From Lachnospiraceae bacterium (GTDB lineage: Bacteria; Bacillota; Clostridia; Lachnospirales; Lachnospiraceae), in assembly GCA_017626325.1 (NCBI GenBank), contig JAGAIZ010000071.1:1-51697 (forward strand): 51,697 nucleotides of DNA, read 5' to 3'. Made by a program: the position numbers and the translations under genes. The notes under the pieces are model-generated. The model searched no databases. It saw only the letters and a list, made by a program, of their open reading frames with translations, and was not told where the DNA came from. Below, piece by piece: positions 8,850 to 47,767 of this stretch (within the stretch, counting starts at the first letter, position 1; every line of letters starts with the position of its first letter).

Positions 8850-8897
8850 AACTACTTCCAACTTTGTCTGTATGCATACTTTTAATTTATACAGATG

Positions 8898-8926
8898 ATT
8901 TTAATGCAAATTTATAAATTTTACAA
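8898..8926 (-). promoter_or_regulatory. Promoter of the dlt-like cassette
   Basis: On the minus strand TTGTAA (8921-8926) and TAAAAT (8898-8903) are spaced by 17 bp. The box at 8886-8895 would cover the start point. Confidence 0.5.
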
Positions 8927-8949
8927 TACTTTTATGAATAAAATATATT
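8920..8949 (+). promoter_or_regulatory. Promoter of the XRE regulator gene
   Basis: TTTACA (8920-8925) and TATATT (8944-8949) are spaced by 18 bp, and the box at 8948-8957 overlaps the start point. The -35 region overlaps that of the divergent promoter. Confidence 0.45.
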
Positions 8950-8979
8950 TATACAGACAAAGAAAGAAGAGGTATCCGC

Positions 8980-9300: not shown

Positions 9301-9336
9301 CTTTTATTTTATAGCTTTTATTCCATAAAGCAAGAC

Positions 9337-9368
9337 AAAATGCCCCGCACTTACGTACAGGGCATTTT
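9337..9368. terminator. Bidirectional terminator
   Basis: AAAATGCCC at 9337-9345 pairs perfectly with GGGCATTTT at 9360-9368. The A-tract and T-tract allow function in both directions between the convergent regulator and isomerase genes. Confidence 0.8.
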
Positions 9369-9393
9369 CTGTTGACCTGATTTGCTCTATGCT

Positions 9394-10878: not shown

Positions 10879-10959
10879 GTTACTTATCCTCCTTTACCGG
10901 GTTGACCGGTTCTTTTCTATATTGCTATTGGCTCCCTCCTGCCAATATTGACACAGTTA

Positions 10960-11583: not shown

Positions 11584-11615
11584 CGGTATCCTCTCCCTTC
11601 TATTCGTTCCCTTAC

Positions 11616-27945: not shown

Positions 27946-28038
27946 TCTTAATACTCCCTTAATTCTCAACAAAATTTAAAATCAAACTCTGTTTCCTATT
28001 TTCTCACATCTTGTCCTAAAAGGCAAGTTTTAGTAGAC

Positions 28039-30722: not shown

Positions 30723-32162
30723 CTAAGTCAACTGCAGCGTCATCTCAGGATTCCATAACACCAGATATCCCATATTTGCCGCCGCCCGGCCTAATTCCAG
30801 ACTTATTTTGCGATACCCCGCTTCATCACAATTAAGTCCTGAAACGTCCGCAATCCGCATTTCATGTATTCCACGTCCCGTCTTGGCATGAACCGTTCTC
30901 TCCTGATAAGGAAGTCCCGTAATCTGCGTAAAAACAGACTGCAGCGGCGCCTGAAGCCGCATACATCTGATATCCACCGCGGCGCAGTCCTGTTTCAGCA
31001 CCGCTCTGTGGGTAGAACCGCCGCTGTACTGCCCGTGAAGCCCTTCGAAGAGACATCTTCCCTGCCAGTCATAAGCACCGGCGCAGATCCGGCGGCGTCC
31101 ATCCAATATTCTGCCTCCCACGATTCCCACATCCTGTCTGACCGTCAGAATATCCGGCCTGTATGAAATATCATAGAATCCCAGATGCAGGCTGTGCTCC
31201 ACGCTCACATCCCAGCCCTGCTTCCTGCAGAAATCCTCCAAGGCGGCTTTGCCCGCCTCATACGCGTACGCTTTGCTGGCCGTATTCTCCGAGGTGGACG
31301 TCTCATGACAGCGCCAGTGATAGAGCACCCGCGGAATATGGACGATAAGCTTCTGCCATCGCGCCGGATTACCGCTCTCTGCCGCAGCGTCCTGTCTGTA
31401 GAACCGGTCCGCCACCCGAAGCACCAGATCATAGTCCTGCGCCCCGTCATATGTCCCGCGCAGTCTGAGCTGTTTCATCATTCCCGCTTCTACCGCCATA
31501 AAGTGGCATATATAGTTATTTGACAACATTAAATCCAGATTAAACTCTTGTTTTTCGTGTACCGACACATAATTCTGTAATTTCTGATCATATTTATCTT
31601 CGTCAGAATAAAGCAGCACCGGCATGATATGATACTTTGCGCACTCCTGAATTCTACGCGCCATACAATATAACGCATCAGGTGTTATGAAATCATCATG
31701 ATCCAGCAGAGCGATATAATCTCCTGCCGCTAAATCTATCCCGGCGTTGGTATTGCCGGAAATACCTTTATTCTCTGTCAAACGCCTGTATTTTACACGG
31801 GCGTCGCCCGTTTCTTTCATCAATTCCCGCACGACCCGCTCAACCGTATCGCTGCTGCCGGCGTCTACAATGATCAATTCCCATTTCCGGTAGCTCTGCC
31901 CCCGCACAGAATCGATCATTTCACGTAAATATTCTTCCTTCGTCTCATAGGCAGGCACTACGATACTGAACAGATACGGATAATCCGCAGTCTCCTTCCA
32001 TTGGGCCCTAAGCGTATCTTCTGTTGGTTTCCGGTAGACATAGATGTCCTTTCTCTCTTCCTCCACGCGCTCCCTGGCAGCGTACCAGGCATGACTGATT
32101 CCGTTCTTTTTCACATAATTCACTGTTTTTCTGACATTGCTGAGTCTTAGGATTTTCCCCAT
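30723..32162 (-). CDS. Family 2 glycosyltransferase with C-terminal extension
   Basis: A 479-residue protein. One GT2 catalytic domain (about 45-300) has FSIVVPAYETKEEYLREMI, ISGNTNAGIDLAAGDYIALLDHDDF and YHWRCHETSTSEN. About 150 residues follow that look like a partial, probably inactive second GT domain. The first domain is closely similar in layout to the first domain of the 679-residue enzyme upstream. The ATG at 32162 is chosen because AAAGGAGG ends one base before the alternative ATG at 32168. The leader contains purine-rich 20-bp repeats. Confidence 0.82.
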   Translation of the reverse strand: MGKILRLSNVRKTVNYVKKNGISHAWYAARERVEEERKDIYVYRKPTEDTLRAQWKETADYPYLFSIVVPAYETKEEYLREMIDSVRGQSYRKWELIIVDAGSSDTVERVVRELMKETGDARVKYRRLTENKGISGNTNAGIDLAAGDYIALLDHDDFITPDALYCMARRIQECAKYHIMPVLLYSDEDKYDQKLQNYVSVHEKQEFNLDLMLSNNYICHFMAVEAGMMKQLRLRGTYDGAQDYDLVLRVADRFYRQDAAAESGNPARWQKLIVHIPRVLYHWRCHETSTSENTASKAYAYEAGKAALEDFCRKQGWDVSVEHSLHLGFYDISYRPDILTVRQDVGIVGGRILDGRRRICAGAYDWQGRCLFEGLHGQYSGGSTHRAVLKQDCAAVDIRCMRLQAPLQSVFTQITGLPYQERTVHAKTGRGIHEMRIADVSGLNCDEAGYRKISLELGRAAANMGYLVLWNPEMTLQLT

Positions 32163-32217
32163 TGTCATGCCTCCTTTAGTCTTATTCCGGCTTCGCCTTT
32201 GTCTTGTGCTTTCCGTC

Positions 32218-32411: not shown

Positions 32412-34133
32412 CTATAAACATGCTTTCAGGTCTTCCGTCAGCTTACCAAGCTTCGCCTCAGCATCCTCAAGGCTTGTGCCTTTAACGCCCATGTAGAATT
32501 TAATCTTAGGCTCTGTACCGGAAGGACGCGCACAGCACCAGGAATCGTTGGTTAAGTCGAAGTAGAGAACATTAGACTGCGGAAGTCCTGTCTCTCCTTC
32601 CGCTCCTGTCTCGAGATTCAGCGTCTTGCCTGTAGTGTAATCTCTGAATTCTTTCACCTTCAAATCTCCGAAGTTCTTCGGCGGATCGTTTCTTAATTTG
32701 TTCATGATCTCTTCGATCTGCTTCGCACCGTCGATACCCTTCATGGTAATCGCATACTGGCTTTCCTTGAAGTAGCCGTACTTCTCATAGAGCGTAATCA
32801 TCTGATCCCATACGGTCTTGCCGTTCTTCTTGCACCATGCCGCCATCTCGCACAGACACATAACCGCTACAACAGCATCCTTATCTCTCGCATGGGTACC
32901 CGCCAGACAGCCGTAGCTTTCTTCCAGACCGAATACATAGTTGTTGGAACCGCTCTGCTCAAACAGCTTGATCTGCTCGCCGATGAACTTGAATCCTGTC
33001 AGCACCTCGATGAATTTTACTTTATAATCCTCCGCAATCACGCGAGCCATATTGGTCGTTACGATGGTAGTAACCAGCGCAGGATTCTCAGGCATAGTGC
33101 CTGTCGCCGTTCTCTCTCTTAAAATATATTCCGCGATCAGCATTCCGGACATGTTGCCTGTAAACGGCACATACTCTCCTGTCCTAGTATCCAGCGCGTA
33201 GATACCCAGTCTGTCCGCATCCGGGTCTGTTGCCAGCACAATATCCGCTTTCTTCTCCTTAGCCAGCTTCAGCGCCAGAGTGAATGCTTTCGGATCTTCG
33301 GGATTCGGATACTCCAACGTGGTGAAATTCGGATCCGGCATCTCCTGCTCGGGTACCACATAGACATTTTTAAACCCAAGCTCTGCAAGAATTCTTCTGA
33401 CCGGAACATTACCCGTACCGTTAAACGGAGAGTATACGATCTTCATATCTTCCGCCATCTCTTTGATGACTTCCGGATGGATGATCTGTTTCTTTAATTC
33501 CTCCATGTACTTGTCGTCAATTTCCTTGCCGATCACTTCGTACAGGCCCGCCTTCATGGCTTCGTCCTTATCCATGGTCTTCACAGTGTGATAATCTGTT
33601 ACGTTATTTACCTCTGTAATGATCTCTTTATCCTTAGGAGCGGTAACCTGCGCGCCGTCCTCCCAGTAGCACTTGTAACCATTGTATTCCGGCGGGTTAT
33701 GGCTTGCCGTAATCACAATACCGGAGATACAGCCCAGCGTACGCAGCGCGAAAGATAATTCCGGAGTAGGTCTTAACGCGTCGAACACATAAGCCTTGAT
33801 TCCGTTCGCAGCCAGACACAGCGCTGCTTCATCGGCAAATTCGGGTGACATTCTTCTGGAATCATAGGCGATTGCCACACCCTTCTTCTCGCCGCCCTGT
33901 TTCTTTATATAATTAGCCAGCCCCTGTGTCGCCTTGCGGACCGTATAGATGTTCATACGATTCGTACCGGCGCCGATCACACCGCGAAGCCCGCCTGTAC
34001 CGAAAGCCAGATCCTTGTAGAAACGATCTTCGATTTCCTTCTCATCATTCCGGATTGCCAGAAGTTCCTGCTTCGTCGCGTCATCGAAATAGGAATCTTC
34101 CAGCCAAAACTCAAACTGTTCCTTATACCCCAT
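32412..34133 (-). CDS. Phosphoglucomutase / phosphomannomutase
   Basis: A 573-residue alpha-D-phosphohexomutase of the large PgcA type. Its motifs are the phosphoserine loop TASHNPPEYNG, the metal-binding loop DPDADRLG, the sugar-binding EESYG and the phosphate-binding RPSGTEPKIKFY. It interconverts glucose 6-phosphate and glucose 1-phosphate, the latter being the substrate of RmlA, so its location in this cluster links central metabolism to dTDP-rhamnose. AGGAGG precedes the ATG. Confidence 0.95.
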   Translation of the reverse strand: MGYKEQFEFWLEDSYFDDATKQELLAIRNDEKEIEDRFYKDLAFGTGGLRGVIGAGTNRMNIYTVRKATQGLANYIKKQGGEKKGVAIAYDSRRMSPEFADEAALCLAANGIKAYVFDALRPTPELSFALRTLGCISGIVITASHNPPEYNGYKCYWEDGAQVTAPKDKEIITEVNNVTDYHTVKTMDKDEAMKAGLYEVIGKEIDDKYMEELKKQIIHPEVIKEMAEDMKIVYSPFNGTGNVPVRRILAELGFKNVYVVPEQEMPDPNFTTLEYPNPEDPKAFTLALKLAKEKKADIVLATDPDADRLGIYALDTRTGEYVPFTGNMSGMLIAEYILRERTATGTMPENPALVTTIVTTNMARVIAEDYKVKFIEVLTGFKFIGEQIKLFEQSGSNNYVFGLEESYGCLAGTHARDKDAVVAVMCLCEMAAWCKKNGKTVWDQMITLYEKYGYFKESQYAITMKGIDGAKQIEEIMNKLRNDPPKNFGDLKVKEFRDYTTGKTLNLETGAEGETGLPQSNVLYFDLTNDSWCCARPSGTEPKIKFYMGVKGTSLEDAEAKLGKLTEDLKACL

Positions 34134-34257: not shown

Positions 34258-36297
34258 CTATTTTCCGTCATACCGAAGCGCGAAATCGCTACGGTCCAGC
34301 GAGAAATTCGGATTGTAATACGGATCCCCCTGCGCCAGCAAGTCCTTCCATTTATTCCTGAATGCCTCGGCTTCCCTGTTATAGCGCTGCGCCTTCTCTC
34401 CCTGATCGTCCAGTCCTCTGGATACAGATTCATAATGATAAAGTTCCGCAAAAGGCGTAAATACATTCACATACCCGGCTTTCCATGCACGGACGCAGAG
34501 ATCCACGTCATTGAGCGACACGGCGAAACTCTCGTCTAATCCGCCAAGCTCTTCATAGAGCGATTTGCGCATCATCAGGCAGGCTCCCGTAACCGCCATC
34601 ACATTCTGGGCATAGCAAAGCCTGCCCATATAGCCAAGATTGTTATAGCTGACGCGGTAATGGCTGTGTCCCGCCGTCCTGTGCGCACCCAGGCCGAGCA
34701 CCACGCCCGCGTGCTGGATCGTATTGTCCTCATAGTACAGCTTCGCGCCCACCGCGCCTACGTCCTTGCGCTGAGCATACATCAACAGCTCTTCGATCCA
34801 GTCAAAGGTGATCACCTGCGTATCGTTATTCAGAAGAATCACATACTGCCCGGCAGCCTGCTTCACGCCCAGGTTATTGATCGCGGAATAATTGAAGGCA
34901 CCGTCGTAAGTAACCACCCTGATACCGGGCTGCTCTTTCAATTTATCATAATAGTCAAATATTTCCTTCGTGACAGAATTATTCTCCACCACCACTATCT
35001 CATAATTGTCATAGGTGCTCTTGTCCTGAATAGACGTAATGCACCGCTCCAGATCTTCCACATGGTCCTTATTCGGAATCACGACAGACACCTTCGGATT
35101 CCCGATAATCTCATATTTAATCCTGAAAATCGTCTCAAATGCCTTCGTGGACGTGATCTCGAAATTCCGAAAGCCCTTCTCTGTCAGATGAGCCGCCACT
35201 GCCCCTTTGGCCGCCTCGATGGCATAGCTTTTGGCATTGATGTCAGAGGCGACGCTTCCCTCATGAGAACGCCAGTAATAGAGGATCTTCGGCACATGCA
35301 CCACGCACTTGGCCTGGGCGGTCAGCCGCAGAATCATGTCGTGATCCTGACTGCCGTCGAACCGGGAGCGGAACAGCTCCGTACCCTCCATAAGCTTCCG
35401 GTCAAAGGCGCTGAAATGACAGATATAATTGTTCGCACGCAGATTATCCGGTGCAAAATCCGGCTTGAAATGCAGCGTAATCATATCGTCGATGGTCTTA
35501 TCTCCCTTAAAGGTAGTCTCGTCGCAGTAAATATAGTCCGCGCCCTTCTCACAGATGACCTTCATATATTCATACAGCACGCTGGGGTGCAGCACGTCGT
35601 CATGATCAAACAGGGCGATATAGCTGCCTGTGGACATGGCGTAACAGGCGTTGGTATTGCCGGAAATGCCTTCATTCTTAAGCAGCTTCTTATACACGAT
35701 ACGGCTGTAAAGATTCATGTGGCTCTGCTTTAGATATTTTTTATCCTGCTCTATATACTCTCTGCAGATCCGCTCCACATCGCCATGTTCCCCGTCAGAT
35801 CCGTCCGCCAGACATAATTCCCAGTTCTCGTAGGTCTGCGCGATCACGGATTCGATTGCCTGACGCAAGAACTTCTCAGGCGTATTATAGAGCGGCACCA
35901 GAATACTGAATTTGATATCCCTGTCAAACTTCGTCTCCCGCTGTCTCTTCGCTTCCTGGGCATCCGGAAAGCTTGCCGTACCATGCTGGATACACGCCTT
36001 TTTCTCGATCATCTTGGCATGAAATTTTCTGGCAATGCCTCTGATATTGCCGTAACGCCCCAGCCGTTCCTTCATGCGGTGCGTCCAGTGCACCATACTG
36101 CGCAGAGGCTTGGCAAGCCGCCAGAAAACGCTTCCCTTAATGCTTTTCAGCCTTTCTTCCAGATCAGCGCTCTGATTATTCGTATCCACAATCTTGCCCG
36201 CTAAAACCCTGCCTTTCTTTATTTCCCGCTCGTAAGCATCCTTATAGAAGCGCAGGGCTTCTTCCTGTGTCATTTGACTTAGGTCTTTCTGTTCCAT
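34258..36297 (-). CDS. Two-domain family 2 glycosyltransferase
   Basis: A 679-residue protein. An N-terminal helical module (about 10-75) ends in SVFWRLAKPLRSM, a motif seen in clostridial polysaccharide transferases. Two GT2 domains follow. The first (about 127-380) has FSILVPLYNTP, ALFDHDDVLHP and YYWRSHEGS; the second (about 400-640) has VSVVIPNKDH, LLNNDTQV and LNDVDLCVRAWKAGY. Both DxD-like motifs are present, so both domains may be active, possibly forming an alternating disaccharide as in bifunctional rhamnan synthases. It follows the 802-residue enzyme by 18 bases. Confidence 0.87.
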   Translation of the reverse strand: MEQKDLSQMTQEEALRFYKDAYEREIKKGRVLAGKIVDTNNQSADLEERLKSIKGSVFWRLAKPLRSMVHWTHRMKERLGRYGNIRGIARKFHAKMIEKKACIQHGTASFPDAQEAKRQRETKFDRDIKFSILVPLYNTPEKFLRQAIESVIAQTYENWELCLADGSDGEHGDVERICREYIEQDKKYLKQSHMNLYSRIVYKKLLKNEGISGNTNACYAMSTGSYIALFDHDDVLHPSVLYEYMKVICEKGADYIYCDETTFKGDKTIDDMITLHFKPDFAPDNLRANNYICHFSAFDRKLMEGTELFRSRFDGSQDHDMILRLTAQAKCVVHVPKILYYWRSHEGSVASDINAKSYAIEAAKGAVAAHLTEKGFRNFEITSTKAFETIFRIKYEIIGNPKVSVVIPNKDHVEDLERCITSIQDKSTYDNYEIVVVENNSVTKEIFDYYDKLKEQPGIRVVTYDGAFNYSAINNLGVKQAAGQYVILLNNDTQVITFDWIEELLMYAQRKDVGAVGAKLYYEDNTIQHAGVVLGLGAHRTAGHSHYRVSYNNLGYMGRLCYAQNVMAVTGACLMMRKSLYEELGGLDESFAVSLNDVDLCVRAWKAGYVNVFTPFAELYHYESVSRGLDDQGEKAQRYNREAEAFRNKWKDLLAQGDPYYNPNFSLDRSDFALRYDGK

Positions 36298-36315: not shown

Positions 36316-38724
36316 TTATGAAATCACGACAGTCTTATCTGACCATGCAATCAGCTTCTGTCCTCTGCCGCCCTCCACAGCGTTTGTACACAGCATACCT
36401 ATCCGGTATTCGCCCGGTTCCAGATCCTTCCGGTACACGCGCAGCGCAAAGCCCGACAGTCCGATATTATGTTCTCTCTGCAGAACCGCATCCACGTCCT
36501 TCCTGTGCCAGTCGGCCACAACTGCGCAGTACCCTGTTCCGTCCTCTCTCTGCAGCAGAAGGGACCTGTCATATAACGCATTGTCCTCGCCCGGCACATA
36601 ACTCCAACCCATAATCCACACTATGTCCGGCTCATCCCTGCAAATCTTATGTTGCAGCTCCGCCCGGTCCACAATCAACTGCAGTTTATCCGTTTCCGCC
36701 TTTTTCAGATAAGACCTGCCAAATACTTCCACCGGCATCGTCAAAAGATGTTCTTCATATGCAAATTTATAATTACAGCTATAGTCAGATGCATTATCCA
36801 CCAGATCTGTATGATAGAAGGGATCCTGTCCGTCCATAACGGGGTGCTTCGCATAGAGCCGTTCCTTTTCCGTAAGCAGTCTCTCCCACTTTCCTTCATC
36901 CTGTTCATCCAGACCGCGGCTTAATGACTCGTGATGATACAGCACCGCGTCATTGCGCTGTACATTATAGTATCCGGCCTCCATCAGCCTGAAGCAGAAA
37001 TCCACATCATTATAAGCCACCGCCATAGCTTCGTCCAGGCCGCCTGCCTGCTCATACTTCTCTCGCGCCACCATCAGGCACGCTCCTGTGACGCCTGCCA
37101 TATCGTATACCAGACGGTTATGTCCATAATAATAGTCTCTGTCATCCTGAAACGTAATCAGCTTATGGGACGGACCGATTCTGAGATTCGTAATGCCCGT
37201 ATGCTGTATCTGCTCAGTGCCCGCATACCACAGCTTGGCGCCTACCGCTCCCACATAAGGCTGCAGCGCCTGCCCTGCCATACGTCCAAGCCAGCTTTCC
37301 TCAATGATCTCTATATCGTCATTGAGCAGCAGAATCAGATCGCCCCGCGCATGCTTCACGCCAAGATTGCACATTCTGGAGAAATTAAACGGCATCGGCT
37401 CATACAGATACTGAAAGCCGTACTTCTTCTGAAGAAGTTCCATCTTCGCCTTATTCTCTTCATTGCTGCCGTTGTCTACCACAATCCATTCATAATACCG
37501 GTACTGCGTCCTCTGGCGGAACGTCTTAAGACAATTTTCCAGCACTTCGGGATGATCCTTTGAAGGAATCACTACGGATACGACCCGGTGCGGCGCGACC
37601 GCTTCCTCGGCGCTCTTAGCCCTGACGCAGCGTTCCCTGCCGGAGACAGACGTGTCGTATACAATATGATACAAATCCGGATCCTGTCCGCACAGGAAGC
37701 TTGCGCGAATGCCTCTTCTGATCAGCGCTTTCTGCTTCATCTGCAGGAATTCTGCGCCTGCCCCTGTCAGAAACCGCCCCGAATCCATATCCTCTTCTAT
37801 AGCATTGCCCATATACTTCTGATGATAAAGCACACCGTCCAGATGGCAGATCATATTCCGCGCCCTGCCATAATCCAGAACACAGCGCTTGAGCACCGCT
37901 TCCTCCAGCCGCAGACACAGATCATAGAAATCAACTGCCCTGTCTACGTCCTGCAGTCCTCCTCCGCTCTGTCGTCCCGCCGTGCCGGACATTCCTGCTC
38001 CGCTCCGCCGTCCTGTCGTACCGGATGGGCCTGCTTCTCTCTGCCATCTTGTCCGTGTCTCCGCATACCAGCCGCCCAGTTCCGCCAGAAGTTCCCTGCG
38101 GACCGCAATCATATGTCCCCAGTAATTAAAAGCAAGCAGCGTATCCGGTGAATAGCACGGCTTAAACCAGGGTTCCTTTCTCCGGGAAAGCTGCGGCAGA
38201 TAGAAATCCTCGTCGGCATACAGGAGCATACAGTCTTTATTCTCATTAAAACATGATTTAACTTTCTCCAATCCGCTCAGTTCCACCCAGCCGGATTCAT
38301 ATGTGATGATTATGACGTCCGTGTCAGGAATCTCCGTCTCCGTCCATCCATGCACCTCAACCGACTCTTCCTGCATAGAGCCGGAATTTTCATAACCATT
38401 GTTATTCAGCCATTCCTGATAACGGTTGTTCTGTTTCTCCAACGATTCCTCATAACGCAGAAGACAGGCGCTCTTCTCTAAGCTCCTGCCCTTATCCTTA
38501 TCCGCGCGCAGCCGCGCGGTTATCCCCTGGTACATACTGCGCGCAGGCGCAGTCATTTTCCAGAACAGGTTTGAACAGATACGGTTCAGATTATCCCGGT
38601 AATCCGCCTGCCGCCTCTGCGCGTCCGCAAGATCTCCTGCCAGCACAGTATTCTGTTTGCGCTCTTTCTCATAAGCGGCCGCGTAATAAGCCGCCCAGTC
38701 ATAACTGTTATTCTGTCTGCCCAT
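36316..38724 (-). CDS. Multi-domain family 2 glycosyltransferase with Gly/Ser-rich insert
   Basis: An 802-residue protein. The N-terminal helical module (about 10-75, ending SNLFWKMTAPARSM) is homologous to that of the 679-residue enzyme. The first GT-like domain (about 130-330) is divergent, with LLYADEDF. The second (about 380-640) is canonical, with VVSVVIPSKDH, LLLNDDIEI and YNDVDFCFRLMEAGY. A C-terminal beta-rich region follows (about 680-802). A low-complexity insert at about 234-257 consists of two 12-residue copies (SGTTGRRSGAGM and SGTAGRQSGGGL). The ATG overlaps the upstream TGA by one base (TGATG), indicating translational coupling. Confidence 0.85.
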   Translation of the reverse strand: MGRQNNSYDWAAYYAAAYEKERKQNTVLAGDLADAQRRQADYRDNLNRICSNLFWKMTAPARSMYQGITARLRADKDKGRSLEKSACLLRYEESLEKQNNRYQEWLNNNGYENSGSMQEESVEVHGWTETEIPDTDVIIITYESGWVELSGLEKVKSCFNENKDCMLLYADEDFYLPQLSRRKEPWFKPCYSPDTLLAFNYWGHMIAVRRELLAELGGWYAETRTRWQREAGPSGTTGRRSGAGMSGTAGRQSGGGLQDVDRAVDFYDLCLRLEEAVLKRCVLDYGRARNMICHLDGVLYHQKYMGNAIEEDMDSGRFLTGAGAEFLQMKQKALIRRGIRASFLCGQDPDLYHIVYDTSVSGRERCVRAKSAEEAVAPHRVVSVVIPSKDHPEVLENCLKTFRQRTQYRYYEWIVVDNGSNEENKAKMELLQKKYGFQYLYEPMPFNFSRMCNLGVKHARGDLILLLNDDIEIIEESWLGRMAGQALQPYVGAVGAKLWYAGTEQIQHTGITNLRIGPSHKLITFQDDRDYYYGHNRLVYDMAGVTGACLMVAREKYEQAGGLDEAMAVAYNDVDFCFRLMEAGYYNVQRNDAVLYHHESLSRGLDEQDEGKWERLLTEKERLYAKHPVMDGQDPFYHTDLVDNASDYSCNYKFAYEEHLLTMPVEVFGRSYLKKAETDKLQLIVDRAELQHKICRDEPDIVWIMGWSYVPGEDNALYDRSLLLQREDGTGYCAVVADWHRKDVDAVLQREHNIGLSGFALRVYRKDLEPGEYRIGMLCTNAVEGGRGQKLIAWSDKTVVIS

Positions 38725-40997
38725 CAGCTAAAGAGTCCCCTTTTCTGCATATGCCGGATTGTCTCCTGCGGCGCCCTGGTCACTTCCATAGACACCTGCA
38801 GAAGATTCTTTTCTTCGTTGCTCATCCCCAATACAGACACGATAATATTAGGATCATCGGTGGCAAACGCGTAAGTATTCTCCCCCACCCTGAATCCGTT
38901 GGTCTGTATCTGCTTTCCCTTTAACGGAATCTGTCCGCCATTCCACACCACCTGTTTCAGATAAACCAGACAGTACGCATTGCACGGGTCAATCCGCAGC
39001 GCGCTTCTTCCTCTCCGGACCGGTATCTGCAGTTCCATCGTACCGTCCGCCAGCGTTCTGACCTGCTCCCTGTCTTCCTCCAGGAAGAAAGACTGCTCCT
39101 CACAAAATCCCCTGCCTGTATCTTCATAGATCTGTACTCTGTCTTTGCAGGCATCCGCAGCCTGCCCCGCGCAGAATGCCTCTACCGTATAGATCGGATG
39201 ACCGATGGCATCCCGAAGCTCCGCCATAGACATATACCTGCCCGTCACGTACTTCTGGAATTCCATCTCCTGTCTGCGGTACTGCTCCGCATCTGACTGC
39301 GTGATCTGCAGCTTATCCATGATTAAATCCAGATTTAATCCATTTCTTTTCTCGTTTTCAAGGAGATAACAATAGACTGCGCGAAAAGCTGTTTCCTTCG
39401 TCTCAACGGTTCTGTCGAAAGTCCATTCATAATCAATTAAATTCCATACGTTATTATTCAGATCCGCATTTTCGCAGGTTATTTTCGCTCCATCGCCTCT
39501 CCCGGCTTCCCCGCATGTTATCAGGATATTCGCAAAGATCAGGTCATAATCCGCAACCGGCTTCTCTTCTCCATAAGACACTCTTCTCAGATAATCGTCG
39601 AAAAGTCTCTGAAAGCCTTCCGTATCCTTCTTCTCCAGACATTCATCCAATAGTTCTTCCAGACTTCTGCCCTCCAGATATTGAAAGGATACATAGGGAG
39701 TGCCGTCATCGCTTCTGTGCATTTCGCACCGGTTGACGGATAATCCGCCGCCTTCATATCGTCCTTTCAATTTCTCATACGCGTGGAAGGTATCTTCTAT
39801 ATGTTTCCACGCGGCTTTCGATAACGGATGCTTTTCTATTGTTCTTTTTGAAATAACACGTGCTTCTTTGACTGTTCCCTGTGCTGTTGCTTCGCTGCCG
39901 GCCGTCCGCACCGACTTCTGCACCGTTTTGATGCAGAAATCTTCTTTTCTGTCGTTGGAATACCTGACATATTCCTCCTCCAGTTCAGGTCCTAAAATCA
40001 ACATATAGGAATTAGAGAACAACGGGAACTGATTTTCCTTTATAATCGTGTCAAATACTTTCTTTTCGTCAAACAGCTCCAGTCTTTCCCGGTCGAAGTT
40101 ACGCCGATTAGAAGACAGTTCTCCAAACCTCGGCAGCCTTTTGTCCGAATACAATGTGGTCATAAACTTATAATCCGGATAGGGGTAATACATCTGCGCC
40201 TGTTCCTGCGTAAAGCCGCAGCGTTCAGCGATCTGCAGCAGTCCGTCCTTCGTAAAGGTTCTGACCGCACCGCCGTCAGGATAATCCTCCAGGCCGCTGA
40301 AATATGTGCCCAAATGATCCTCCTTACAGCCCGCCCAGTATTTCAGGCCGAATTTATTCTCAATGGCAATGGCGATATGTCCTTCCGGCTTCACATGTCG
40401 CCTGATAATATTCAGGAAATCTTCATAGGGCGTCTGGGAGCGGATATACGCCTGTCCGTACTCAAACACACCGATCAGGCAGATATAATCGTAATCGCAG
40501 GGAAGCTCAGGCTCAACGTCCTGAAAATTTCCCACGTGTATGGTTACGTTCTCCCTGTCCGTATGACGGTAAGCATTGATCATGCTTCGTTTCCGGGAAA
40601 GATCGATGCAGGTCACTTCCCCGGCCTTCCGCGCCAGGGCTCCTGTAATCGCGCCGCAGCCTGCCCCCACTTCCAGCACCTTCATATCCTTCGTAATGGG
40701 CAGCCATTCTACGATATTCTCCCGCAGAGGGGACAGATGATACAGTACCTCCCAGCTCCTGCTCTCTTCTATAATGCGCCGGTACTCTACCTCCGCATAA
40801 TCTCTCGTGATCCCCAGAAGCGTATCCTCGATATCTCCGTCGCAGTACAAATCCTCACCGGGATAATGTTTCAGATCCAGACGAATCCTGCCGATCGTAG
40901 TGATCGTTTCCTTTTCTTTCACAGGTTTGCCGCCTTCTGCCTGCCTTCTCTCATCCGCTTCCTTCTTTTCACTGTTTATTCTGCTATCCGGCATCAT
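38724..40997 (-). CDS. Methyltransferase / kinase-like fusion, WbdD-like candidate
   Basis: A ~757-residue protein. An N-terminal class I SAM-dependent methyltransferase carries motif I VLEVGAGCGAI near residue 108. A central domain resembles small-molecule kinases of the aminoglycoside-phosphotransferase type, with DYDLIFANILI where the family has HxDxxxxN and LIDYEW at the DFG-like metal site (about 483-525). A C-terminal beta-sandwich-like domain (about 630-757) completes it. Methyltransferase plus kinase in one chain is the architecture of WbdD, which caps O9a polysaccharide and fixes its length. It lies 35 bases after the Wzt-like gene. ATGs at 40997 and 40994 are both possible after GGAG. 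Confidence 0.75.
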   Translation of the reverse strand: MMPDSRINSEKKEADERRQAEGGKPVKEKETITTIGRIRLDLKHYPGEDLYCDGDIEDTLLGITRDYAEVEYRRIIEESRSWEVLYHLSPLRENIVEWLPITKDMKVLEVGAGCGAITGALARKAGEVTCIDLSRKRSMINAYRHTDRENVTIHVGNFQDVEPELPCDYDYICLIGVFEYGQAYIRSQTPYEDFLNIIRRHVKPEGHIAIAIENKFGLKYWAGCKEDHLGTYFSGLEDYPDGGAVRTFTKDGLLQIAERCGFTQEQAQMYYPYPDYKFMTTLYSDKRLPRFGELSSNRRNFDRERLELFDEKKVFDTIIKENQFPLFSNSYMLILGPELEEEYVRYSNDRKEDFCIKTVQKSVRTAGSEATAQGTVKEARVISKRTIEKHPLSKAAWKHIEDTFHAYEKLKGRYEGGGLSVNRCEMHRSDDGTPYVSFQYLEGRSLEELLDECLEKKDTEGFQRLFDDYLRRVSYGEEKPVADYDLIFANILITCGEAGRGDGAKITCENADLNNNVWNLIDYEWTFDRTVETKETAFRAVYCYLLENEKRNGLNLDLIMDKLQITQSDAEQYRRQEMEFQKYVTGRYMSMAELRDAIGHPIYTVEAFCAGQAADACKDRVQIYEDTGRGFCEEQSFFLEEDREQVRTLADGTMELQIPVRRGRSALRIDPCNAYCLVYLKQVVWNGGQIPLKGKQIQTNGFRVGENTYAFATDDPNIIVSVLGMSNEEKNLLQVSMEVTRAPQETIRHMQKRGLFS

Positions 40998-41032
40998 AAT
41001 TCTCCAAACTTTCCCCAAACATTCTATTTCTC

Positions 41033-42412
41033 TTATCTGACCTCTATCACAGAATTCATGTCATAGAAGCCCACCGTATTCTTATCCGAAACAACCGTAA
41101 CATTCAAAACGTCATATAATCTGTGATACACGGTAAAATCGTCATCCTCGTATCCTGTTACCCCCAGAGACAGCAGATAATCGCCTCCCTGCAGGTTCAT
41201 TTCCTGCGTAAAGGTTATTTCCTTGGTTTCTCCCGCTTCCACGGGTTCCAGAAATGCCTTCTCGAACATCGTATTCGTTCCGGTTATCTCCGTTCCGCGC
41301 ACATTCTTAATGGTAAAAGCAAAAATAGGCGCCTGCAGATGTTCCTTCATCTCTACCTTCATATAGATGGTAAACCTGCTGCCCTTTAAAATAGCGCTCG
41401 TCCTGATCCCCTTATCGTCTGTAATATAATACTCTGTTATCACAGCCTTTTTAGAACCATATTCGAGAAGTTCCGGATTCTCTCCGATTCCTCCGTTTGC
41501 AGACGCCGATTCTCCGGCCGCGCCGTCTTCCGCGCCGCCGCCCGAAGCCGTCTTTCCGGCCCTGTCTTCAGGACTGACACTCCGTTTGCTTCCATCGATT
41601 CCCTTCGCCGCCATCTCACGAAGCTGCTCGTCGTCTAAGAGGCTTTTTTCTCCCGGCTCCGCCGGCGGCACATACTGCCCCACAAGCACCTGCTTGTAGG
41701 TATCGATCATTTTCTTCGGCTCTCCCTCTCCCAGCTTGACGCCCTGATTGAGCAGGACAACCCTGTCGCAATACTTGCTGACGCTGCTTAAGTCATGGCT
41801 GACAAACACTATGGTTTTGCCCATTTCCTTAAACTCTTCGAACTTATGATAGCACTTCGCCTGAAAGAAAACATCTCCCACAGACAGCGCCTCGTCTACA
41901 ACCAGGATCTCCGGCTCTATATTGATTGCCACCGCAAAGGCCAGACGCACAAACATACCGCTGGAATAGGTCTTCACCGGCTGATATACATATTCTCCGA
42001 TGTCCGCAAATTCCAGTATCGCATCCAGCTTCTCATTAATTTCCTTTTCACTGAAACCGATCATTGTGCCGTTGAGATAGATGTTCTCAATGCCGTTATA
42101 TTCCATATTGAAGCCGGCTCCCAGCTCTAACAGCGCAGAAATGCGTCCGTTCACCGTCACGCTGCCGCTGGTGGGATTTAAAACGCCGGTAATGATCTTG
42201 AGGATCGTGGACTTACCCGAACCGTTCGTACCGATAATACCCACGCATTCTCCCTGTCTGATCGTCATATTAATCCCCTTGAGGGCATGATGCTTCGTAT
42301 GATGGCATTTCCCGCCCAAGCCAAACGCATCCTTCAACCGGTCCGAAGGCTTATCATACAGCTTATATACTTTCTCAACATCCGTAACCTGAATCGCAAT
42401 CTTCTGATCCAT
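41033..42412 (-). CDS. Polysaccharide ABC transporter ATPase with Wzt-like C-terminal domain
   Basis: A 459-residue protein. Residues 1-245 are an ABC ATPase with Walker A GTNGSGKST, signature YSSGMFVRL and Walker B ILVVDEALSVGD. A Ser/Gly/Ala-rich linker (about 255-320) leads to a beta-sandwich (about 325-459) with ITEYYITDDKG, VEMKEHLQAPIFAFTIKN and EMNLQGGDYLLSLGV. This matches the carbohydrate-binding C-terminal domain of Wzt, which in O9a recognises the capped end of the glycan before export. The ATG at 42412 follows AAAGGGA. The frame open to 42529 is only the repeat region. Confidence 0.88.
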   Translation of the reverse strand: MDQKIAIQVTDVEKVYKLYDKPSDRLKDAFGLGGKCHHTKHHALKGINMTIRQGECVGIIGTNGSGKSTILKIITGVLNPTSGSVTVNGRISALLELGAGFNMEYNGIENIYLNGTMIGFSEKEINEKLDAILEFADIGEYVYQPVKTYSSGMFVRLAFAVAINIEPEILVVDEALSVGDVFFQAKCYHKFEEFKEMGKTIVFVSHDLSSVSKYCDRVVLLNQGVKLGEGEPKKMIDTYKQVLVGQYVPPAEPGEKSLLDDEQLREMAAKGIDGSKRSVSPEDRAGKTASGGGAEDGAAGESASANGGIGENPELLEYGSKKAVITEYYITDDKGIRTSAILKGSRFTIYMKVEMKEHLQAPIFAFTIKNVRGTEITGTNTMFEKAFLEPVEAGETKEITFTQEMNLQGGDYLLSLGVTGYEDDDFTVYHRLYDVLNVTVVSDKNTVGFYDMNSVIEVR

Positions 42413-42458
42413 GTTCTTCCCTTTCTGTTCCAGACATTCCCCGGCCACATTCCCTATG

Positions 42459-42650
42459 CAGCCTGCAAAAGCGCCTTTCTTCCGGCACACTCCACTGCAG
42501 CCTGCCGAAGCGCCTTTCTCTTCCAACACACTCCACTACAGCCTGCCGAAGCGCCTTTCTCTTCCAACACACTCCACTACAGCCTGCCGAAGCGCCTTTC
42601 TCTTCCAACACACTCCACTGCAGCCTGCCGAAGCGCCTCTCCCGGCACAA
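42459..42650. repeat. 41-bp tandem repeat array between transporter genes
   Basis: Five copies of a unit beginning CAGCCTGCCGAAGCGCCTT start near 42459, 42498, 42539, 42580 and 42621. The middle copies are almost identical, while the first and last are divergent or partial. The array fills nearly the whole gap between the permease stop (42655) and the ATPase start (42412). The minus-strand unit contains GGAAGAGAAAGG, which looks like a ribosome-binding sequence. Because 41 is not a multiple of three, several frames stay open across it, but none resembles a known protein. Confidence 0.85.
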
Positions 42651-42654
42651 CGCC

Positions 42655-43689
42655 CTAGAGGACGTCCGCGAAATGCACTCTCATTTTTCTGAAAATCAGC
42701 GTACCAATACAAAACAGGCTGATCGTGAAAATCCAAAAATACGTAGAAGAATAGAAATGCTCCCAGAACCACACTTCTTCATAGATAGCGCTCCGGTAGC
42801 CGTTCACGATATATACCAGAGGATTCAGCTTAAAAAGCGTCTTCATGTTATCTGTCAGCATTTCAATACTCCACAGAATCGGAGTCGCCCACATGCCAAG
42901 CTGCAGGGCAATATTGATAATCTGCTGCAGATCCCTGAAAAACACGACCAGCGCACAGGTCAGATAACTCATGCCGAGCACCAGCAGGAACAGACAGAAG
43001 CTGTAATAAACCAACTGCAGCGTATAAAGAGTCGGATAATAGCCATACGCGATGGACACGATCAGCAGCACCGCCACAAAAAATACATGGATAAAGGTCG
43101 CCGCGATCACTTTGATAATCGGAAGGATACTGATATTAAACACTACCTTTTTCACCAGGTAACTGTACTCTAAGAGCGCCATCGTCCCCTGCGTAATCGC
43201 CTCTGTGAAATAAAACCACGGCACCAGTCCCGCTGTCAGATAGAGCACATAGGGAACCTCTACGCCGCTCGCCACAAGCTGACTCCTCGTATCAAACACC
43301 TTATCAAATACGATCCAGTACATCACCACAGTCACCACAGGCTGTGCCATCGCCCAGACAATGCCCAGATAGGAGCCTGCATACCTGGTCTTGAAGTCGT
43401 TCTTGGCAAGCTTCCAGATCAGCTTCCTGCTCTGCCAGAGTTCTACGGGAATCGTCATGATTCTATCGTAATATATCGCAAAAATAATGCACGTAAAGGT
43501 GATCAGCACACAGCCGCTGAACTTCTTCATCTGCTCTGTCACCTGGTCCGCCAGCGGATTATGATGATTCACGAGCACAAGGGCCAGCACCAGACCAAGC
43601 CCCCAGAATATTGCTATCGCTGCGGGCTTAGGTAAAGTTCTTATATTTCTGTTGGCAGTATCGTTTTTTATCGTGTTGTTTCTGTTCAT
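42655..43689 (-). CDS. Polysaccharide ABC-2 type permease (Wzm/TagG-like)
   Basis: A 344-residue membrane protein. An unusual N-terminal extension has two extra hydrophobic segments (about 20-40 and 60-80). The ABC-2 permease core begins KNDFKTRYAGSYLGIVWAMAQP, followed by six membrane segments. Such permeases pair with Wzt/TagH ATPases to flip complete lipid-linked glycans. It follows rmlC by two to fifteen bases depending on the start: a GTG at 43701 and an ATG at 43689 are both in frame, and neither has a clearly better ribosome site. Confidence 0.9.
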   Translation of the reverse strand: MNRNNTIKNDTANRNIRTLPKPAAIAIFWGLGLVLALVLVNHHNPLADQVTEQMKKFSGCVLITFTCIIFAIYYDRIMTIPVELWQSRKLIWKLAKNDFKTRYAGSYLGIVWAMAQPVVTVVMYWIVFDKVFDTRSQLVASGVEVPYVLYLTAGLVPWFYFTEAITQGTMALLEYSYLVKKVVFNISILPIIKVIAATFIHVFFVAVLLIVSIAYGYYPTLYTLQLVYYSFCLFLLVLGMSYLTCALVVFFRDLQQIINIALQLGMWATPILWSIEMLTDNMKTLFKLNPLVYIVNGYRSAIYEEVWFWEHFYSSTYFWIFTISLFCIGTLIFRKMRVHFADVL

Positions 43690-43703: not shown

Positions 43704-44273
43704 CTAACGATTGTTTCTATATTGCTCCGTAAAGGCCCTGATACCATCCCATTTCAGATCCTTCTCAGACAGGACAAGCTCCGTTCCCTCCGGAATAGGC
43801 CACTCTATGCCGATATCCGGGTCATTCCAGATCATACCGCCCTCGTCATTGGGATGATAGAAATCCGTACATTTATAGGCAAATTCCGCGTAATCGGAGA
43901 GCACGAAGAAACCATGGGCGAAGTTCTTCGGAATGAAGAACTGCTTCTTATTCTCCGCTGACAAAGTCACGCCGAACCACTTCCCATAGGTGGGGGATCC
44001 CTGTCTGATATCCACCGCAACGTCAAACACTTCGCCGCTTAATACGCGCACCAGCTTATCCTGCGGATGATTGATCTGGAAATGCAGTCCCCGCAGCACG
44101 CCTTTCACGGAAGAGGACTGGTTATCCTGCACGAATACCTGATCAATCCCCGCTTCCTTATAATCGTTGTAATTGTAGGTCTCCATGAAATACCCTCTTG
44201 CGTCTCCGAACACAGTCGGCGTAATCACCTTCAATCCTTCAATTTCACACGTTTCCACTGTTATTTTACCCAT
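43704..44273 (-). CDS. rmlC: dTDP-4-dehydrorhamnose 3,5-epimerase
   Basis: A 189-residue cupin enzyme of normal length, with the RmlC signatures VLRGLHFQINHPQDKLVRVLSGEVFDVAVD (split over its core) and IPKNFAHGFFVLSD. The catalytic His lies in LHFQ. It performs the third step of dTDP-L-rhamnose synthesis in the cytoplasm. It lies between a GH25 gene and the transporter permease gene, in the same orientation as rmlA and rmlB. The final enzyme RmlD is not encoded in the window. Confidence 0.95.
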   Translation of the reverse strand: MGKITVETCEIEGLKVITPTVFGDARGYFMETYNYNDYKEAGIDQVFVQDNQSSSVKGVLRGLHFQINHPQDKLVRVLSGEVFDVAVDIRQGSPTYGKWFGVTLSAENKKQFFIPKNFAHGFFVLSDYAEFAYKCTDFYHPNDEGGMIWNDPDIGIEWPIPEGTELVLSEKDLKWDGIRAFTEQYRNNR

Positions 44274-44300: not shown

Positions 44301-45656
44301 TTATTCTCTGTCGTCTCCCGTAGGCACATTGCCGCTGTCACCGCTGACCACGCCGGAATATCCCGCCGCGCTCTTTGCATGGTTGACAGACGTGTCAATA
44401 TTCATATAACAGAGATTTAAATCCACACGGGTGTCAATACCGTCCACTGTTCCCTTAGAGGTATACTGCCACATATGATAGTATTCATCATAAGTCGGCA
44501 CTTCGGCATATTCCGCCAGCCACGTTCTATATTCTGACAGTTCAGTCATATCGAGTTCATCCTCCAGCCAGTTCCTGGAAGCATAGATTCCCGTCTCATA
44601 TCCTGCTGCCGAAATCGTCTCCAGAAACGCCTTATGGATCTTTGTTCTCTCCTCAGCATCCAGTCCATCCGCGCGGCCTCTTCCGCCTGCGCCTTCACTA
44701 TCCAGGAATACCGGATAATCCACATCGTAGTCTTCTATCAGACGAATTACCATACTGGCTTCTTCCACAGCCTCCACTTCATTAAGCGCCTGCGTGAAGA
44801 AATACACACCCACAGGAATGCCCGCATCGATCGCGCCCTCAATATTCTCCCTGTACATGGGATCTATTACCAGCGCACCGGAAGAAGCGCCTCTGTAACC
44901 GCACCGGATAATGGCATACTCTATGCCTGCCTCTTTGACAGTCTCCCAGTCGATCTCTTCATTCCATTTTGATACGTCGATTCCCAGTCTGGCGCTGCCT
45001 TTTCCAATCTGCAATTCCGTATTTTCAGTGCCATCCGCCGCTTCTTCCGCGCCGTTTACCGCTTTATCTTCTTTGCTCGGATCGATATCATCCTCGGTGA
45101 GCATCAGGTATTCGATTTCATCCAGAACACGGTATTCAATCTCCTGACGTACCTGTATCGTCGTAATCGTATTGGGAACAATATATCCCTCTATCTCCTC
45201 CAGCGATACGCTGTATTCCCCGGCACGCAGTCCGTCTACATAGATAATTCCATCTTCATCCGTATCTGTATATTCCCCCGCCCCGTTAATTTTAACCGTA
45301 AAGGGAGCGCCGGTTACCAGCTTGCCTACGCTGTCCACCACCATAACGCGCAGGTCCTTCGCCACAGAACTCATCACGAGAAACACATTCCTGCCGGAAT
45401 ATGTCTGAATACTCTTGAATTTGACTTCCGGATCAAAAAAAGTCTCATCTTGCAGAAAAGCAGACAGATCATTGCCTATCTGCCCACCGCCCGTATCCGC
45501 TTCTTCTATTGCAGCCGTCTCCTGTACCTGCTCCTGCACAGCAAGACCAAGCTTCTGCTTCACCATGTCCAGGTTGGTGACCGCAATCACGGCCACCAGC
45601 ACAACAAACATCGCTATCATGGCAGACAGCATTCTTCTCATCCTCTTAGAGTCCAT
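44301..45656 (-). CDS. Membrane-anchored GH25 lysozyme-like protein
   Basis: A 451-residue protein. A short basic N-terminus and a membrane segment (about 9-28) lead to an extracellular part. This has a small beta-sandwich of SpaA/Cna-B character (about 85-160, [23 protein letters not shown]) and a C-terminal GH25 domain (about 235-435). GH25 motifs are [14 protein letters not shown] and [10 protein letters not shown], with the catalytic Asp/Glu. It would cut peptidoglycan while tethered to the membrane. The ATG at 45656 has AGAGG six bases upstream and overlaps the end of rmlA by 11 bases. It shares its architecture with the protein at 47799. Confidence 0.87.
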
Positions 45657-46515
45657 TCGCAACCTCTACCATGTACTGGCCATAAGCTGTCTTCATCAGC
45701 GGCTGCGCCAATGTAAGCAGTTGTTCCTTCGTAATAAAGCCTCTCTTATAAGCGATCTCCTCGATGCAGGAAATATACAGTCCCTGTCTCTTCTGAAAGG
45801 CCGCCACGAAATCCGCCGCGTCTAAGAGCGAGTCATGATTGCCCGTGTCAAGCCAGGCAAAGCCTCGTCCCAGCGTTTCCACACGCAGCGTACCCCGTCT
45901 TAAATATTCGTTGTTAATACTTGTAATCTCTATCTCGCCTCTGGCGGAGGGCTTAACATTCTTTGCGATCTCCACCACGTCATTGTCATAGAAATACAGT
46001 CCCGGCACCGCATAATTGCTCTTAGGGTTCTCCGGCTTCTCTTCAATGGAGATTGCCATACCGTCCGCGTCGAATTCGACAACGCCGTATTCTCTGGGAT
46101 CTCTCACATAGTAACCGAAGATAGTCGCCCCCGTCTTCCTGGACGCGACCTCGCGCAGCACCTTGGAAAAGCTCTGTCCGTAGAAAATATTGTCGCCCAG
46201 GACGAGCGCCACTCCGTCGTCTCCGATAAAGTCCGCGCCGATAATAAAGGCGTCCGCAAGTCCTCTCGGATACTCCTGCACCGCATATTCCATCCGAAGC
46301 CCCAACTGTTCTCCTGTCCCGAACAATTCCTGAAACACCGGCAGGTCTCTCGGTGTGGAAATAATCAGTATATCTCTGATGCCTGCCAGCATCAGCGTAG
46401 AAAGCGGATAATAGATCATCGGTTTGTCGTACACCGGCATAATCTGTTTGGATATCGCCTTCGTCAGGGGGTACAGTCTTGTGCCTGAACCGCCCGCAAG
46501 TATAATGCCCTTCAT
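45646..46515 (-). CDS. rmlA: Glucose-1-phosphate thymidylyltransferase
   Basis: A 289-residue nucleotidyltransferase beginning [18 protein letters not shown], the nucleotide-binding signature, followed by [19 protein letters not shown] and VLGDNIFYG. It joins glucose 1-phosphate with dTTP to give dTDP-glucose, the first step to dTDP-rhamnose, and is normally inhibited by dTDP-rhamnose. The ATG at 46515 follows GGAGGAGACA. A few codons upstream are also open. It lies between rmlB and the GH25 gene, which overlaps its 3' end. Confidence 0.96.
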
Positions 46516-46570
46516 TGTCTCCTCCATTTCGAAGCATGACAGCCGGCCCGGTATCCCGGTTCTGCCGTCT

Positions 46571-47653
46571 CTATCTGCCCTGATACATATCCTGGTAGTA
46601 TTTCTGATAATCGCCGCTCGTCACATTCTTCATCCAGTCCTCGTGCTCAAAAAACCACTGGATCGTGCGGCGGATGCCTTCCTTAAACATGGTCTCCGGC
46701 TCCCAGCCGATCTCGTCTCTGATCTTGTCAGGCGCGATAGCATATCTTCTGTCGTGACCCTTGCGATCCTCCACATAGGTAATCAGCTCTTCACTGACGA
46801 GCGCCTTTCGCGGGTCTTCCTCCGGCAGCATCTCCTGAAGCGTATCAAGAATTATCTTAATAATCTCAATATTCTGTTTCTCATTATGGCCGCCCACGTT
46901 GTAGGTTTCAAACAGCCTTCCCTGCTCCTGTACCATATCGATCGCCTTCGCATGGTCTTCCACATACAGCCAGTCGCGCACATTCCTGCCGTCGCCGTAT
47001 ACAGGAAGCTTCCTGCCATGAAGCGCATTGTTGATAATCAGCGGGATCAGCTTCTCCGGGAACTGGTATGGTCCATAATTGTTAGAGCAGTTCGTGATAT
47101 TGGCAGGGAATTTATAGGTGTCCATATACGCTTTCACAAGCATGTCCGATCCCGCCTTGCTCGCCGAATACGGGCTGTGCGGCGCATACGGGGTTGTCTC
47201 ATAGAAATAACCGCCGTCCTCTTCTAAGGAACCGTACACCTCGTCTGTGGACACGTGAAGGAATTTCTTATCCTCCTTATAGGCGCCGTCCGGAAGCTCC
47301 CATGCCTCCTTAGCGCAGTTCAGCATGACTGCCGTACCCAGTACATTGGTCTGTACGAATATTTCCGGGTTCTTAATGCTTCTGTCCACGTGGCTCTCCG
47401 CCGCAAAATGCACTACTCTGTCGATATCGTTCTCGGCGAAAATCCGGGCAATCGCCTCTTTATCACAGATGTCCGCTTTGACAAAGGTGTAATTGTCCCT
47501 CTTCTCTACATCTTTCAGATTCTCCAGATTACCCGCATAGGTCAGCGCATCCACATTGATGATTCTGATCTCATTATCATATTTGCGAAACATATAGTGG
47601 ATATAGTTGGAACCGATAAAGCCGGCTCCTCCGGTCACAAGGTATGTTCTCAT
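46571..47653 (-). CDS. rmlB: dTDP-glucose 4,6-dehydratase
   Basis: A 360-residue short-chain dehydrogenase family enzyme. It has the NAD-binding motif [13 protein letters not shown] at the N-terminus, the catalytic YSASK and [11 protein letters not shown] near the C-terminus. It converts dTDP-glucose to the 4-keto-6-deoxy intermediate. The ATG at 47653 follows GGAGAC and places the glycine motif at residue 8. An open frame to 47719 would include a leader hairpin instead of protein. It is the first gene of the polysaccharide operon, with a promoter at 47768-47796. Confidence 0.96.
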
Positions 47654-47666
47654 ATTGTCTCCATAT

Positions 47667-47703
47667 GCACACGCCCTCGCGCATCTTATGCGCAATCGTG
47701 TGC
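47667..47703 (-). promoter_or_regulatory. Leader stem-loop upstream of rmlB
   Basis: An outer stem GCACACG/CGTGTGC (47667-47673 with 47697-47703) encloses an inner stem GCGCAT/ATGCGC (47679-47684 with 47688-47693). It lies between the predicted transcription start and the ribosome site of rmlB, so it could affect translation or mRNA stability. Confidence 0.5.
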
Positions 47704-47767
47704 CTGCCTCCATTCTCAATCATTTTATCGTCTGCCCGCATGATACGGGCGAAACACTTCTGGTTCT

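Follow-up and report, generated by a model that had tools for sequence, protein, structure and literature searches.

How does a Gram-positive bacterium end the growth of a wall polysaccharide that leaves the cell through an ABC transporter? To our knowledge, little is known of how the length of such polymers is set in Gram-positive gut bacteria beyond the S-layer cases. The question is raised by a gene cluster in contig JAGAIZ010000071.1 of a Lachnospiraceae bacterium (assembly GCA_017626325.1), which we analysed over its whole length of 51,697 nucleotides (hereafter the window). Its core encodes consecutively an ABC-2 permease (Wzm), a Wzt-type ATPase and a fusion of a methyltransferase to a kinase-like domain (hereafter MTK); this succession, proposed in an initial annotation of the window, was confirmed by the Pfam searches, the open reading frames (ORFs) and the fold analysis, except that the region had been ended at 43689, 12 bases short of the end of the permease ORF at 43701. 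We propose, with a probability of about 0.72, that these genes serve the termination and export steps of a wall-polysaccharide pathway that depends on an ABC transporter: MTK would make a methylphosphate cap, and Wzt would read it.

In the proposed pathway, the initiating enzyme would prime the lipid carrier and glycosyltransferases of the GT2 family, including GTa and GTb, would assemble a rhamnose-containing chain in the cytoplasm. The Bud32/APH-like kinase domain of MTK would then phosphorylate the non-reducing terminal sugar (by analogy with the O7 system described below, at O-3 of rhamnose), and the N-terminal domain would methylate the terminal phosphate, whereupon growth would end. The C-terminal domain of Wzt would read the cap, with Arg470 in place of the Trp lid of methyl-only systems, Wzm/Wzt would export the capped chain, and the LytR-CpsA-Psr (LCP) protein would join it to peptidoglycan. 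The chemistry of the cap, its acceptor, termination rather than decoration, the gating of export, the attachment to the wall and the control of length are what we infer from the homologies, gene neighborhoods and conserved residues presented here.

The N-terminal part of MTK matches several Pfam methyltransferase families (best E-value 5.5e-10, residues 115-215), and no kinase family was among the Pfam and NCBIfam matches listed for this protein; 43 homologous kinase domains gave a single Pfam match, to ABC1, with an E-value of 0.0027 (1/43). The AlphaFold model has a pLDDT of 90.3. With the full-length model as a query the fold search listed only methyltransferase-type matches, at residues ~1-368, and for the kinase region it identified a kinase fold, with APH and WaaP (small-molecule and sugar kinases) among the top matches, in agreement with the kinase-like character predicted initially. 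The domain shows a bilobal protein-kinase-like fold in which the characteristic Lys, Asp, Asn and Asp are present: K396, N497, D529 and E531 are each invariant in 67/67 aligned homologues, and the catalytic D492 is Asp in 65/67 and Glu in 2/67. The site had been described as divergent, with DYD in place of HxD. The His is indeed replaced (by D490 in MTK; Asp in 56/67 homologues, Asn in 8/67), but the catalytic Asp and N497 are kept in register. The lost His and weak matches of the kinase profile to JAK1/JAK2 would fit a pseudokinase, or a regulatory role as a protein kinase directed at the transporter or the glycosyltransferases; we regard this as very improbable, given that 65-67 of the 67 sequences retain the Lys, the catalytic and the metal Asp and the Asn and that APH and WaaP rank among the best structural matches.

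A translated search of plasmids revealed two Gram-negative homologues of MTK, each encoded directly after wzm-wzt: a 649 aa protein of Citrobacter braakii, located near rml genes, and a 1457 aa protein of Pseudomonas asturiensis. Profile hidden Markov models (HMMs) of the Lachnospiraceae domains, compared with these proteins in a six-protein file to which all E-values against Gram-negative homologues refer, matched P. asturiensis and C. braakii with 2.7e-58 and 2.3e-58 for the methyltransferase and with 6.6e-10 and 1.4e-6 for the kinase. The C-terminal region (residues 629-748), which is beta-rich in the model, matched P. asturiensis weakly (1.2e-3) and gave no match in C. braakii. The single chain of P. 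asturiensis spans both MTK (28-535, 25% identity) and GTa (787-1454), the latter comparison yielding 35% identity over 692 positions (5e-121).

Among characterised enzymes, the closest parallel appears to be ORF6 of the Klebsiella pneumoniae O7 locus (PMC11231755; here and below, published systems are cited from excerpts of the respective papers). It comprises a methyltransferase, a cryptic kinase, a carbohydrate-binding module, a coiled coil and two GT2 modules. The enzyme is reported to attach methylphosphate to a mimic of terminal rhamnose, at O-3, and its D441A form to lead to accumulation of unexported polymer; orthologues are named for alpha- and gammaproteobacteria and cyanobacteria. 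The residues Y28, Y66, G91, G93, E112 and Y158 of the S-adenosylmethionine site bear the same numbers in P. asturiensis as published for ORF6-O7, and the catalytic Asp is residue 443 in the former and 441 in the latter; the MTK equivalents in the P. asturiensis alignment are Y58, Y93, G118, G120, D139, Y187 and D492, the last of which aligns with D443. Judged through the Pseudomonas and Citrobacter proteins as proxies, the characterised homologue of MTK appears to be the O7-type terminator, ORF6-N. In both, a methyltransferase precedes a cryptic kinase, which in MTK is followed by a beta-rich region that may correspond to the carbohydrate-binding module of ORF6; both are encoded beside Wzm/Wzt and belong to a rhamnose-containing glycan. 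In the window, however, a gene of its own (GTa) encodes the polymerase half, with GTb lying in between, MTK seems to be without the C-terminal coiled coil, and the cluster includes an LCP gene and belongs to a Gram-positive host. As MTK seems to have no ruler motif, we class it as a split variant of the O7-type terminator, not as a plain member. At their N-termini, GTa and GTb carry a short segment that looks heptad-like by eye, along with a stretch resembling SxFWRxxxPxR (29/79 GTa and 12/79 GTb sequences have the strict pattern). The GTa segment aligns with the P. asturiensis protein from residue 787, and such segments might act as a ruler in trans.

The initial annotation had taken WbdD of Escherichia coli O9a as the model for control by end-capping. 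The capping of the chain and a cap-reading exporter are supported by homology, synteny and covariation of the Wzt pocket, but WbdD is not the appropriate model: orthology of the kinases was rejected (hhalign probability 2; HMM i-E-value 0.98 in the six-protein file), and the methyltransferases are weakly similar (hhalign probability 67). WbdD was absent from the 50 fold matches listed for the MTK kinase, which excludes nothing. The two systems do share the gene order wzm-wzt-methyltransferase/kinase-polymerase (E. coli HS locus), a Wzt with 34% identity over 454 aligned positions including the C-terminal domain, with Arg in the pocket, and kinase residues D351, N356 and D369 of WbdD that match those of MTK (N356 and D369: PMC3482155; D351 by our own count from N356). 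They differ in that the WbdD kinase is without detectable homology to MTK and that WbdD has a coiled-coil ruler and serves a polymannose lipopolysaccharide (LPS) (PMC3482155).

The methyl group of the proposed cap deserves separate consideration. In Clostridium difficile Ox247, for which ABC export is predicted, the terminal residue of the S-layer glycan is 2,3-cyclophospho-rhamnose (PMC6254364); several relatives encode the methyltransferase and the kinase separately, and locus L148 has a kinase without a recognised methyltransferase. The cap could thus be a phosphate without methyl, or a cyclic phosphate, with the methyltransferase acting separately on a sugar hydroxyl. This is an improbable alternative, since the O7 relative methylates the phosphate (PMC11231755) and at most of the inspected loci the two domains share one protein or are encoded side by side. 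They are fused in the window type and encoded by adjacent separate genes in some relatives; other relatives have a kinase-glycosyltransferase fusion. In L139 and L148 the kinase forms the N-terminus of a ~1180-aa protein beside wzt, with a weak (L139) or no (L148) methyltransferase match; this arrangement would possibly correspond to a phosphate-only cap. An apparent Wzt-MTK fusion in L035 turned out to be an artefact of ambiguous bases that mask a stop codon.

The second half of the methylphosphate-cap proposal concerns Wzt. The HMM search confirmed the Wzt-type C-terminus announced initially, with Wzt_C (PF14524, 5.2e-43) at residues 356-491, and the protein aligns with Aquifex aeolicus Wzt across the ATPase and the cap domain; its true start is probably near codon 40, immediately before MDQKIAIQV. 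Scored with Wzt_C profiles, kinase-linked Wzts of the Lachnospirales and phylum sets reach at least 181 bits and Wzts without a kinase nearby at most 38, whereas the ATPase-domain scores almost meet (410 for kinase-linked, 393 for others; one truncated copy scores lower). By these scores, obtained with profiles built from window-type sequences and therefore biased towards them, the C-terminal domains of kinase-linked Wzts are a distinct class within the Lachnospirales and phylum sets, and the Gram-negative cap domains are intermediate (Citrobacter 51, Pseudomonas 50, E. coli O9 44 bits). At two loci, L166 and L170, the Wzt_C is diverged and its neighbours include CDP-glycerol glycerophosphotransferase genes, as in a teichoic-acid-like cluster.

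The A. aeolicus transporter is likewise a Wzt_C cap reader, matched by the window Wzt in sequence. Its ligand is a 3-O-methyl cap, whose methyl group packs against Trp362; Leu300, Thr346 and Ala348 belong to the same pocket (PMC9445017). The window protein differs in having Arg470 at the Trp362 position. This lid residue covaries with the type of terminator. Arg occupies it in 79/79 Wzts of the named loci (see below) and in 42/42 sampled kinase-linked rows (38 distinct; the kinase-linked group, here and in the bit scores above, includes G041, with the kinase on another contig, and rows that repeat a genome), as well as in the Citrobacter, Pseudomonas and E. coli O9 proteins, the last from a serogroup that caps with methylphosphate and whose kinase is without detectable homology to MTK. 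The comparison group comprises 17 Wzts that have no kinase close by, from 14 kinase-less genomes plus three second copies; Arg is found in 0/17 and Trp in 10/17 of them. Tyr472 follows the same division: 42/42 kinase-linked, 3/3 Gram-negative kinase-linked and 2/17 others. A kinase-less methyltransferase lies near 8/10 Trp loci (the Pfam scan covered 16 neighbouring proteins of the kinase-less loci); the Trp loci are not ten independent cases (L169 and L171 belong to one genus; L162, L164 and L168 to one family). Exceptions run in both directions: L163 and L173 have a methyltransferase but no Trp, and L147 and L175 have Trp with no methyltransferase among the proteins scanned. Ala348 was dismissed as a discriminator: its position is Gly in 37/42 and Ser in 5/42 kinase-linked rows, yet Gly also in 4/10 Trp rows.

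Four systems checked after the rule had been formed were all consistent with it. E. coli O8, where WbdD is a simple methyltransferase (PMC3482155), has a Trp lid: the keep-length alignment has a gap there, and both a complete realignment and pairwise BLAST comparisons with L167, L169 and A. aeolicus give Trp. The other three are 3 of 25 matches listed: Shinella (methyltransferase only) and the E. coli plasmid pCE33-3 (methyltransferase-glycosyltransferase, no kinase match) have Trp. The E. coli plasmid p503-IncFIB has Gln, next to GT99, a Kdo transferase family. Arg470 would contact the cap phosphate. We consider it somewhat better than an even bet that the lid follows a code (Trp for a methyl cap, Arg combined with Tyr at the second position after it for methylphosphate, other residues for, e.g., Kdo) common to Gram-negative LPS and Lachnospiraceae wall polymers, and that phosphate-bearing end caps are the norm in this family; if so, wzt alone would predict the chemistry of the cap.

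The arrangement is widely conserved. A scan of named genomes gave at least 594 pattern matches and 420 confirmed relatives, of which 80 loci were kept; most of these are, by title or genus placement, presumably from Lachnospiraceae, with two from Clostridium sp. and one from a Candidatus Gastranaerophilales. A Wzt with the cap domain is encoded in 79/80 (the exception, L093, begins at a contig edge), and wzt adjoins MTK with no scored gene between in 77/80; glycosyltransferase genes intervene in L054 and L109. For the order as a whole, 196 genomes were sampled. Matches to the kinase profile occur in 45 of them, 30 with E < 1e-15 (the 15 weaker ones were left out of the cross-count, as were 45 weak matches of 71 from the MTK search), and Wzt_C matched 41: 27/30 of the kinase-positive genomes against 14/166 of the others. 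Kinase and Wzt_C lie at most 7 kb apart in 26/27 genomes carrying both. The kinase is present in 20/22 sampled genomes of the window's family; a phylum-wide sample gave matches in 16/299 genomes, 6 of them strong. The initiator and LCP genes follow downstream in the same order in 10/12 close relatives looked at; in L184 and L188 the contig ends before either gene, in L188 at 10.3 kb and with GTb as the sole gene recognised. LCP was found in 4/80 and the initiator in 39/80 named loci, most of which have flanks too short to include the LCP region.

A number of observations weigh against the capping proposal. L143 and L144 have methyltransferase and kinase genes beside a Wzt without Wzt_C, genomes G058 and G095 combine such pairs with a Wzt without this domain, in G041 the kinase and Wzt_C are on different contigs, and no Wzt_C was found in the stretches taken as L137, L153, L154 and L155 despite their methyltransferase-kinase pairs. 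The pairs in L137, L153 and L154 indicate that the module is not bound to export alone, and would suit a role in which MTK decorates the chain or its side chains with phosphate and methyl and Wzt_C reads something else. We find such a role unlikely in view of the proximity of kinase and Wzt_C in all but one of the shared genomes, the variation of the Wzt pocket with the terminator type, and the characterised relative being a terminator (PMC11231755). Further points concern length control and wall attachment: the characterised terminators bear a coiled-coil ruler, which window-type MTKs seem to be without, as a C-terminal amphipathic motif occurs in 0/80 of them by an ad hoc pattern (a coiled-coil predictor was not applied) and the model of the window protein has a single helix of 12 residues at its end; and the 20 more divergent loci, of ~19 kb, together yielded a single initiator and no LCP match. 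As to homology, the O7 link relies on the residue numbers given in the literature and on a protein presumed to be orthologous, not on the ORF6-O7 sequence; K396 aligns with Arg in Citrobacter or His in Pseudomonas and D529 with Glu in Citrobacter, so that either the N-lobe is misaligned or the site differs; and the Gram-negative cap domains, though above every kinase-less Wzt, score far under the Lachnospiraceae class. Finally, the sequences counted are related, and the counts are hence not of independent events.

Three of these loci have further peculiarities. In L143 and L144 an epimerase-like gene lies between the genes concerned. The stretch of L153 contains two methyltransferase-kinase genes close by (7890-12097), with no transporter recognised in it and a cytidylyltransferase-like ORF adjacent (by eye).

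Features of the window discussed in the text, listed with the core module first.
Feature	Position	Strand	Evidence or remark
wzm, ABC-2 permease, 348 aa	42655-43701	-	Pfam ABC2_membrane 3.5e-16
wzt (ORF of 498 aa), ATPase and C-terminal cap-reading domain	41033-42529	-	ABC_tran 2.2e-22; Wzt_C PF14524 5.2e-43
Arg470 codon of wzt	41120-41122	-	aligns with Trp362, which forms the lid of the methyl-cap pocket in A. aeolicus Wzt
MTK: methyltransferase ~42-341, kinase ~345-600, C-terminal beta domain ~601-764	38724-41018	-	Pfam, AlphaFold model, homologues
MTK kinase domain (K396, D492, N497, D529)	39219-39986	-	column counts, fold matches
GTb, GT2 glycosyltransferase, 802 aa	36316-38724	-	Pfam Glycos_transf_2 5.7e-17; usual gene after MTK
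GTa, two GT2 modules and N-terminal heptad-like segment (by eye)	34258-36297	-	Pfam; P. asturiensis homology
rmlC	43704-44273	-	Pfam dTDP_sugar_isom 3.2e-73
rmlA	45646-46527	-	named by eye from translation; homologues in 73/80 named loci
rmlB	46571-47719	-	named by eye from translation; homologues in 64/80 named loci
GH25 muramidase-like protein	44301-45662	-	Pfam GH25 6.1e-34
Phosphomannomutase/phosphoglucomutase	32412-34133	-	Pfam PGM_PMM_I 7.7e-44
Two GT2 glycosyltransferases	30723-32168 and 29717-30685	-	Pfam
Initiating sugar-phosphate transferase	28124-29533	-	Pfam Bac_transf 1.9e-74
LCP protein, probable wall ligase	26728-27972	-	Pfam 5.8e-34

The genes are transcribed in the order rmlB, rmlA, GH25, rmlC, wzm, wzt, MTK, GTb, GTa and phosphohexomutase, followed by two GT2 genes, the initiator, LCP and one further GT2 gene. 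MTK overlaps GTb by 1 base and is separated from wzt by 14 bases; the gap between the wzm and wzt ORFs is 125 bases. A tandem repeat (42457-42638, 4.5 copies of a 41-base unit) lies in this gap and extends into the 5' end of the wzt ORF, and may affect the spacing or translational coupling of the two genes. The best match to rmlD lies outside the cluster (G000:C40:3460-4290, 1.2e-92), so dTDP-L-rhamnose can probably be synthesised by this organism. The GH25 muramidase-like gene sits between rmlA and rmlC and has a homologue in 72/80 named loci; its conservation within a rhamnose-polymer cluster suggests that wall cutting is tied to polymer insertion.

Capping as such is not new in Gram-positive bacteria, and the initial view of it as best described in Gram-negatives needs to be qualified. 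In Geobacillus, WsaE makes a 2-O-methyl cap and Wzt is predicted to bind it (PMC2943079); this system resembles ours in the Gram-positive host, the rhamnan and the combination of a cap with Wzm/Wzt, but the cap is methyl-only, no kinase is mentioned in the excerpts, and the glycan is bound to an S-layer protein. C. difficile Ox247 is likewise Gram-positive, with predicted ABC export and a phosphate-bearing terminal rhamnose, but the phosphate is cyclic, the glycan is attached to an S-layer protein and the excerpts do not name the enzyme (PMC6254364). What appears to be new is an O7-type phospho-methyl terminator, family-wide and LCP-linked in Lachnospiraceae, with split genes and no ruler in cis, together with the covariation of the Wzt pocket; a search of open-licence literature found no title on such capping in Lachnospiraceae among the matches listed.

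If the proposal is true, a mode of chain-length control from Gram-negative bacteria would extend to a large Gram-positive group. As the kinase occurs in nearly all sampled genomes of the family, mostly beside a cap-domain Wzt, one enzyme assay would inform on a large group, and the Trp/Arg switch of the pocket would permit prediction of cap chemistry from sequence. The data suggest that phosphate-ended glycans are widespread on Lachnospiraceae, which would be relevant to phages, immunity and the analysis of their glycans.

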